From Polaribacter sp. (GTDB taxonomy: Bacteria > Bacteroidota > Bacteroidia > Flavobacteriales > Flavobacteriaceae): a stretch of DNA of 64,000 nucleotides. This document shows positions 19,063 to 60,372 of this stretch, piece by piece (within the stretch, counting starts at the first letter, position 1; every line of letters begins with the position of its first letter). The position numbers and the translations under genes are program-made. Location of the stretch: contig JAQWOR010000072.1 in assembly GCA_029245785.1 (NCBI GenBank), positions 1 to 64,000 of the forward strand, read 5' to 3'. Below the pieces are notes generated by a model, which was given only the letters and a program-made list of their open reading frames with translations, was not told where the DNA came from and ran no database searches.

Positions 19063-19068
19063 GTTTTT

Positions 19069-19175
19069 GTATCGAGAACTACTTCAAAAATCGAAAATTT
19101 GATTCTCGATACTAATTTTACGCATTCTCATTTGTAAAATTCACTCGAAGTGACAAATTTTATTCAAAATACACG
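19069..19175. repeat. Partial copy of the intergenic palindromic element seen at 59243-59418
   Basis: gtatcgagaac...cgaaaatttgattctcgatactaattttac...gtaaaattcactcgaa-tgacaaatt...ttcaaaat shared with 59304-59404. Confidence 0.8.
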
Positions 19176-58524: not shown

Positions 58525-59151
58525 ATGCCTCTTTATAAATCGATAATCGTCAACAACAACACCAAAGTATTTATTTGGAAGATTGACGAATCGTTGGTAA
58601 TATTATCAGATGGCATTGCATTGACACAAAGCAGTACAGCGCGTTTACAGGCGATGAAATCTGAGTTGCATCAAAGAGGTTTTTTAAGCGTCCGACATTT
58701 GTTAAAAGAAGTTGGCTATACAGATCAAGATTTGATCTACGATGCCTTCGGAAAACCCCATTTAAAAGACGGTAAACATATTTCTATTACACATTCACAT
58801 CACTTTTCTGGAATCATTATTTCTGAAGACATCCCTGTTGGAATAGACATTGAAAAACAACGTGACAAAATTGTAAAAATAGCACGAAAGTTTACACCGA
58901 TTGAAGAATACAGAACCATTGCCAACCACGAGGCTTTGGTAAGTAAACTGACCATTGTTTGGGGCGCTAAAGAAAGTTTGTATAAAATCTACGGAAAGAA
59001 GGAGCTCCTTTTTTTAAGAGACATCTATATTGCTGATTTCTTGTTTACAGATAAAAAAACAACTGGAGAAATCGCATACAAAGGAGCCACCAACACCTAT
59101 ACCATTCCTTTTTTAGAATTTGAGGGTTTTACCTGTGTCTATGCTTATTAA
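58525..59151 (+). CDS. 4'-phosphopantetheinyl transferase superfamily protein
   Basis: ISITHSHHFSGIIISEDIPVGIDIEKQRDKI and VWGAKESLYKIYGKK. Confidence 0.92.
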   Translation: MPLYKSIIVNNNTKVFIWKIDESLVILSDGIALTQSSTARLQAMKSELHQRGFLSVRHLLKEVGYTDQDLIYDAFGKPHLKDGKHISITHSHHFSGIIISEDIPVGIDIEKQRDKIVKIARKFTPIEEYRTIANHEALVSKLTIVWGAKESLYKIYGKKELLFLRDIYIADFLFTDKKTTGEIAYKGATNTYTIPFLEFEGFTCVYAY

Positions 59152-59242: not shown

Positions 59243-59418
59243 TAACCCGTTGCGCATTTTGATTAAACTAAATGTCAGTTCGAGTGATTTTCAGTAGAAA
59301 ATTGTATCGAGAACAGGTTTTAAAGCCGAAAATTTGATTCTCGATACTAATTTTACTCATAAAAATGAGTAAAATTCACTCGAACTGACAAATTATCTTC
59401 AAAATGCGCAACGGGTTA
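59243..59418. repeat. 176-bp MITE-like/composite palindromic intergenic element
   Basis: 20-bp perfect TIRs taacccgttgcgcattttga (59243-59262) / tcaaaatgcgcaacgggtta (59399-59418); subterminal 15-bp IR tgtcagttcgagtga (59273) / tcactcgaactgaca (59376); inner stems gtatcgagaa/ttctcgatac and aattttactcat/atgagtaaaatt. Confidence 0.85.
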
Positions 59419-59486: not shown

Positions 59487-59747
59487 ATGAACATATCCGT
59501 AGAATTGACATTATTACCGCTTCAAAATGATTTTGAAGCCCCTATAATAGCATTCATCAAAAAATTAAGAGCCTCTAAATTTACCGTATTAGAAAACCCA
59601 TTGAGCACTCAAATTTATGGAGATTACAATGAGCTAATGCCTTTTTTGACGAACGAAATTAAAACGTCTTTTGAAAGTCAAGAGCATGTGGTAGTCAATT
59701 TAAAAATTGTAAAATCTGATCGCAGCGATTATGAACCAACTTTTTGA
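59487..59747 (+). CDS. Thiamine-binding (MTH1187/YkoF-type) family protein
   Basis: MNISVELTLLPLQNDFEAPIIAFIKKLRASKFTVLENPLSTQIYGDYNELM; overlaps downstream pnuC. Confidence 0.72.
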   Translation: MNISVELTLLPLQNDFEAPIIAFIKKLRASKFTVLENPLSTQIYGDYNELMPFLTNEIKTSFESQEHVVVNLKIVKSDRSDYEPTF

Positions 59748-60372
59748 TTTTTTCCTTAACGCATACCAAAATACTCCTACTAATTTTATTCTGTTAGAGG
59801 TTGTTGCTTTTGTTTTTGGTATTGCTAGTGTTTGGTATGCTAAAAAAGAAAATATTTTAGTTTATCCAACAGGGCTTATTGCCACTGTAATTACAGTCTA
59901 TTTATTATACAAAGCCGCATACTTTGGAGATATGATGATGAATTTCTACTACTCTATTATGAGCCTGTACGGCTGGTGGAATTGGAGCAGAAAGAAAAAT
60001 CATAAAACAATTGTTCCCATTTCAAGAACTACGTTTAAAGAAAAAATAATTGGAGTGGCCTTAGTCCTACTAACAATGCTTGTTACCTATGTTGTGTATC
60101 GCTATTTTGGAAACGACATAAAAATTGAAAATTATCTAGATATTTTTACTTCAGGAGTTTTCTTTACTGCAATGTGGTATATGGCCAACAAAAAAATTGA
60201 AAATTGGACACTTTGGATCTTTGCAGATTTAATTACAGTTCCATTATATGCCTATCGAGGATTAGGAATACTATCATTACAATATCTTATATTTACACTA
60301 CTAGCAATACAAGGATACATCGCATGGAAAAAGAGCTTAGACAGTCTACAGACTTCGGAAAAAACATTGTAA
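59731..60372 (+). CDS. pnuC: PnuC-family transporter (nicotinamide riboside or thiamine, PnuT-like)
   Basis: EVVAFVFGIASVWYAKKENILVYPTGLIATVITVYLLYKAAYFGDMMMNFYYSIMSLYGWWNW. Confidence 0.93.
   Translation: MNQLFDFFLNAYQNTPTNFILLEVVAFVFGIASVWYAKKENILVYPTGLIATVITVYLLYKAAYFGDMMMNFYYSIMSLYGWWNWSRKKNHKTIVPISRTTFKEKIIGVALVLLTMLVTYVVYRYFGNDIKIENYLDIFTSGVFFTAMWYMANKKIENWTLWIFADLITVPLYAYRGLGILSLQYLIFTLLAIQGYIAWKKSLDSLQTSEKTL

Follow-up and report, generated by a model that had tools for sequence, protein, structure and literature searches.

A probable IS982-family MITE of Polaribacter with a head-to-head dimer of REP-type hairpins in its interior

A short palindromic element in the genome of Polaribacter sp. 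is very probably a non-autonomous MITE of the IS982 family, with a head-to-head dimer of GTCA-tagged REP-type hairpins as its interior; as judged from sequence comparison, it would have been moved in trans and would now be an ageing insertion. The IS982 ends, the 7–9-bp target duplications across the family, the copies at unrelated sites, the separate covarying units dispersed through the genome and the empty sites in relatives are demonstrated. The element lies in a 64,000-nucleotide stretch of contig JAQWOR010000072.1 (assembly GCA_029245785.1), referred to here as the window. The source genome is a 2.29-Mb draft of 81 contigs, about 90% complete.

Results

The element and its site

The MITE is 172 bp long (59245–59416), its ends being set by the match to autonomous IS982 elements and by alignment with three other copies in the source genome. 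It is bounded by an 18-bp IS982-type terminal inverted repeat, ACCCGTTGCGCATTTTGA, at 59245–59262 on the + strand, and by the identical sequence on the − strand at 59399–59416. A preliminary description of the same DNA had given a 176-bp element with 20-bp terminal repeats and three nested stems. All four inverted repeats are found where it placed them and as written, but the transposon's ends account for only 18 bp of the 20-bp repeat, the TA beyond either end belonging to the flanking DNA, because 977–986-bp elements with an IS982 transposase carry these ends. Inside, two REP-type units with GTCA tags stand head to head. Unit A (59274–59314, + strand) has the foot GTTC/GAAC and a short apical hairpin; unit B (59337–59389, − strand) has the foot GTTC/GAAT and a longer apical hairpin; a spacer (59315–59336) separates them. 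The 15-bp repeat and the stem gtatcgagaa/ttctcgatac are present, but they are cross-pairings between two head-to-head copies of one unit, and unit B has aattttactcat/atgagtaaaatt as its apical hairpin. The preliminary description had not recognised that a separate, covarying repeat of REP type, present twice, forms the core.

Nearly the whole element can fold, as had been claimed: the 176-nt stretch reaches −87.7 kcal/mol, against −28.2 ± 3.6 for dinucleotide shuffles (z = −16.5; 0 of 200). Its non-coding status also holds, no ORF of at least 60 aa overlapping it, as does its intergenic position ahead of the thiamine-binding/pnuC genes, between 59151 and 59487. The upstream neighbour is a phosphopantetheinyl transferase gene (58525–59151) and the downstream neighbour a thiamine-binding-like/NMN_transporter (pnuC) gene pair (59487–60372).

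IS982 ends and their copies

The element is not single copy, since the source genome holds 21 matches to it. Four of these, counting the window copy itself, are full length at 86–100% identity to the window copy, and several further copies have degenerate ends. The window contains a second, truncated composite (19067–19170), made up of one full B-type unit (19097–19160, − strand) and a degenerate right end. With one genome per species, an exact scan for ACCCGTTGTGCATTTTGA gave at least 106 stretches, nearly all in Flavobacteriales; the genera among the matches listed are Polaribacter, Chryseobacterium, Kordia, Lutibacter, Psychroflexus, Capnocytophaga, Tenacibaculum and others. Among the first 100 of these loci, in other genomes, 62 complete end pairs lie less than 700 bp apart, most of them near 180–183 bp, and a target duplication of at least 7 bp flanks 42 of the 62 short copies; of 2000 control positions, 11 have one. 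In the related genome G034, ten near-identical dimers diverge sharply at the left IS982 ends, eight also at the right, and copies have 7–8-bp duplications, such as TTGATTTT, AATACTTA, ATTTCTAT and TAATAACT.

Identical ends bound autonomous IS982 elements of 977–986 bp in other Flavobacteriales (loci L282, L247, L304 and L305). The ORF of L282 encodes an IS982 transposase (NF033520, 257 bits against a cut-off of 130), and this element has a 9-bp duplication, ATACTTTAA. The transposase with matching ends that the preliminary description proposed to look for is thus present in other Flavobacteriales, but the roughly 90% complete source draft yielded no close IS982 transposase, nor did G034. Searches for plasmid and phage vehicles of the element gave no match. 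Taken with the empty orthologous site described below, the multiple copies, the ends held in common with autonomous IS982 elements and the 7–9-bp duplications of the family bear out the earlier suggestion of a non-autonomous mobile element.

Target-site duplications, likewise proposed as a check, are present across the family but absent at the window copy, where the flanks are CCCGTTTA and TATTTTAT; the left flank holds a partial second ACCCGTT. The missing duplication is consistent with an old insertion. Both arms of the window copy (59243–59262 and 59399–59418) read GCGC, against GTGC in the other copies and in the autonomous IS982 elements; hairpin-templated correction of the quasi-palindrome would explain a derived base common to both arms.

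Empty sites and genomic setting

The preliminary description had also considered a structured RNA leader. A conserved leader or riboswitch controlling the thiamine-binding/pnuC genes would fit the very stable fold, the compensatory changes in the units and the position of the element, 68 bp upstream of the first gene's start codon. However, the orthologous interval lacks the element in eight relatives (G010, G022, G008, G026, G036, G030, G025 and G035), in which the gene order is kept, so that the element is an old insertion and not a conserved leader RNA. Copies lie at unrelated loci and in every gene orientation: 28 of the 30 source-genome unit loci examined are intergenic, between genes in tandem (17), divergent (6) or convergent (5) arrangement. 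A search of Rfam returned no family above the gathering score; all hits were sub-threshold, with microRNA hairpins scoring best. A leader function is exceedingly improbable on this evidence. Because the element is one of many copies across marine flavobacteria, it is not a regulatory element specific to the neighbouring vitamin gene.

The REP-type units

A unit begins with [T/C]GTCA and a 4-nt foot, continues through GAGT[G/A] into an A/T-rich apical hairpin, and closes with TGTATCGA followed by the foot's complement. The GTC of the tag is invariant, preceded by T in most units and by C in some, while the foot covaries (GTTC/GAAC, ATTC/GAAT, CATC/GATG, CTTC/GAAG and TTTC/GAAA). Across 43 distinct units, 97.7% of cells pair and double changes occur in 8 of 10 pairs; the covariation score is 0.454, compared with 0.119 after shuffling and at most 0.105 with slid partners. 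The stems therefore covary, and neither the single copy nor the lack of covariation by which the preliminary description would have been refuted is seen. RNAalifold favours an alternative lower pairing of TCGA with TCGA, which covariation neither backs nor rules out because it is invariant. Judged by the aligned units, it is the hairpin of the individual unit that has been maintained, not the 15-bp cross-stem: the feet pair within their own unit in 135 of 146 units, and 70 of the 73 distinct head-to-head dimers are heterodimers. The perfect cross-stem of the window copy is due to the chance presence of GTTC in both units.

A covariance model detects 44 units in the source genome and units in 34 of 40 genomes of the genus, with at least 150 in G026. 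In the latter, some units alternate in BIME-like arrays that repeat every 144 bp or so (G026:C13:111186–111968 and C47:35841–37193). In G044, with a genome total of 105 units, four same-strand units lie about 203 bp apart (G044:C1:617464–618134). Other GTCA-tagged palindromes occur in the source genome (L009:2752, L010:1431 and L032), with GTCAGGTCGAGCGCAGTCGAGACC and GTCATTTCGAAATGAGGTACGATTGAGAAATC.

Considering this organisation, the element might essentially be a REPIN, that is, a head-to-head REP dimer moved as single-stranded DNA by a RAYT, with the outer repeats as a preferred target palindrome. The GTCA tag, the covarying foot, the head-to-head dimers and the alternating arrays are indeed akin to REP/BIME organisation, and tagged hairpins, inverted dimers and arrays are likewise features of REPIN/RAYT systems (PMC6006769). 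Some dimers have no outer repeats, and the source genome contains a RAYT (NF047646, 96 bits); Bacteroidetes RAYTs with atypical structures are known, as TnpA_REP subclass 2.6 (PMC6006769). However, the outer repeats are transposon ends with target duplications of their own, the tag is GTCA and not GTAG/GTGG, and no tyrosine transposase gene flanked by units was found: of 29 Y1-transposase loci scanned in the genus, none has flanking units, which speaks against RAYT mobilisation of the units. The unit-rich genome G008 gives no Y1 match, and the RAYT of the source genome carries a different inverted repeat. We regard a REPIN origin of the whole element as improbable, and the MITE reading as the better account of it. 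The RAYT itself, the sole Y1 transposase found in the source genome (L034, G000:C71, 1167–1259 and 1288–1836), adjoins the inverted repeat GCACGAGCAAGATGCTCGCGCC.

Ends and cores in other combinations

The IS982 ends enclose more than one kind of core. Among the 62 short IS982-ended elements, 40 have a head-to-head dimer, 6 have one unit and 16 have no unit detectable by the model. Three of the 16 (L224, L233 and L257, from Chryseobacterium) carry a GTCA-GCTC...GAGC unit, and an AGATTTC...GAAATCT palindrome lies inside the IS982 ends of L207 and L211, as well as of L299, which falls outside the first 100 loci.

The reverse is seen in G008 and G026, where the same type of dimer as in the window copy is found inside a different MITE, with the ends GAGCCTGTTTAAA (57 and 61 end sites in G008, 47 and 48 in G026). 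An 854-bp element whose IS5-type transposase ORF is degenerate (NF033580, 127 bits against a cut-off of 110) has matching ends. The two MITEs thus have the same kind of REP dimer inside and unrelated ends, and the IS5-type MITE is not evident in the source genome, where its ends occur at 3 sites, not above a backwards control. In one IS5-ended MITE of G008 (L397), the dimer has collapsed to a single fused hairpin. L396 of G008, an IS5-type MITE without a dimer, is a candidate for the form that preceded insertion, but its junction lies away from the REP boundaries and could have arisen by deletion at short repeats. Because the dimer also occurs in the IS5-type MITE and the IS982 ends also enclose other palindromes, transposon ends and palindromic cores look interchangeable in these comparisons.

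Discussion

We propose the following course of events. An IS982 transposase acting in trans would have bound the ends and moved the element; this transposase may since have been lost from the lineage, or may lie within the missing 10% or so of the assembly. The window copy would now be an insertion ageing in place, with the phosphopantetheinyl transferase gene on one side and the thiamine-binding/pnuC genes on the other. MITEs may be able to acquire the hairpins or swap them as a module; here, the hairpins would be at most a passive structure that stabilises or terminates transcripts.

Two known systems invite comparison. First, the Cardinium endosymbiont of Oedothorax gibbosus has an IS982-derived MITE of about 240 bp, at high copy number, with ends like those of its parent ISCca4; as in the family described here, it is short and non-coding, and has at its ends the inverted repeats of a parent element in the IS982 family. 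In the passages of that account consulted, no REP dimer core is described for the Cardinium MITE, whereas the present element has a REP-type dimer as its core and its family extends across many genera (PMC9769881). Second, the CGTC-tagged REPs of Di Nocera et al. (2013) have an unpaired CGTC/TGTC tag and form head-to-head dimers, commonly heterodimers, with no associated transposase; in two species, Halothiobacillus neapolitanus and Anabaena variabilis, REP dimers are set in long palindromes, in one of these for GTAG repeats (PMC3733652). The units described here share the tag, the hairpin, the head-to-head dimers, the frequency of heterodimers and the setting of dimers within palindromes. The published CGTC REPs have stems of 8–9 bp starting with AT, loops of 4–5 nt and a CCA tail (PMC3733652), whereas in our units the foot is 4 bp, the internal loop is conserved and asymmetric, and the apical hairpin is A/T-rich and longer. 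By the published description, the units most resemble the CGTC superfamily and, in stem architecture, lie outside its four families (PMC3733652). In the open-licence literature, we found no description of a REP-dimer/IS982-MITE composite, nor of one dimer in two unrelated MITE families.

It is possible, though we hold it only tentatively, that transposon ends and REP dimers behave as modules in Flavobacteriales, that CGTC-like REPs spread largely as cargo of MITEs from unrelated DDE transposon families (IS982 and IS5 so far), and that IS982 ends have enclosed different cores. In its stronger form, with REP dimers spreading mainly in this way, the present element having moved as an IS982 MITE and the end-less dimers being decayed MITEs, the proposal is similarly doubtful. 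The same type of dimer inside IS982-ended and IS5-ended MITEs speaks for it, as does the similar CGTC superfamily without a known transposase (PMC3733652). However, about 31 of the 44 source-genome units have no recognised IS982 ends, and the alternating arrays of G026 require another route of amplification. Moreover, dimers are not only cargo, because flank alignment reveals several intact dimers of the source genome without detectable ends.

For a widespread flavobacterial repeat that might be mistaken for a riboregulator, these results provide a rule of annotation. The 2013 study did not settle the means by which CGTC-type REPs spread (PMC3733652), and a similar dimer in two unrelated MITE families offers a concrete and testable vehicle. 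Such a vehicle would also account for REP dimers within long palindromes; if the modular reading is true, the long palindromes around REP dimers in other phyla (PMC3733652) would be transposon ends as well.
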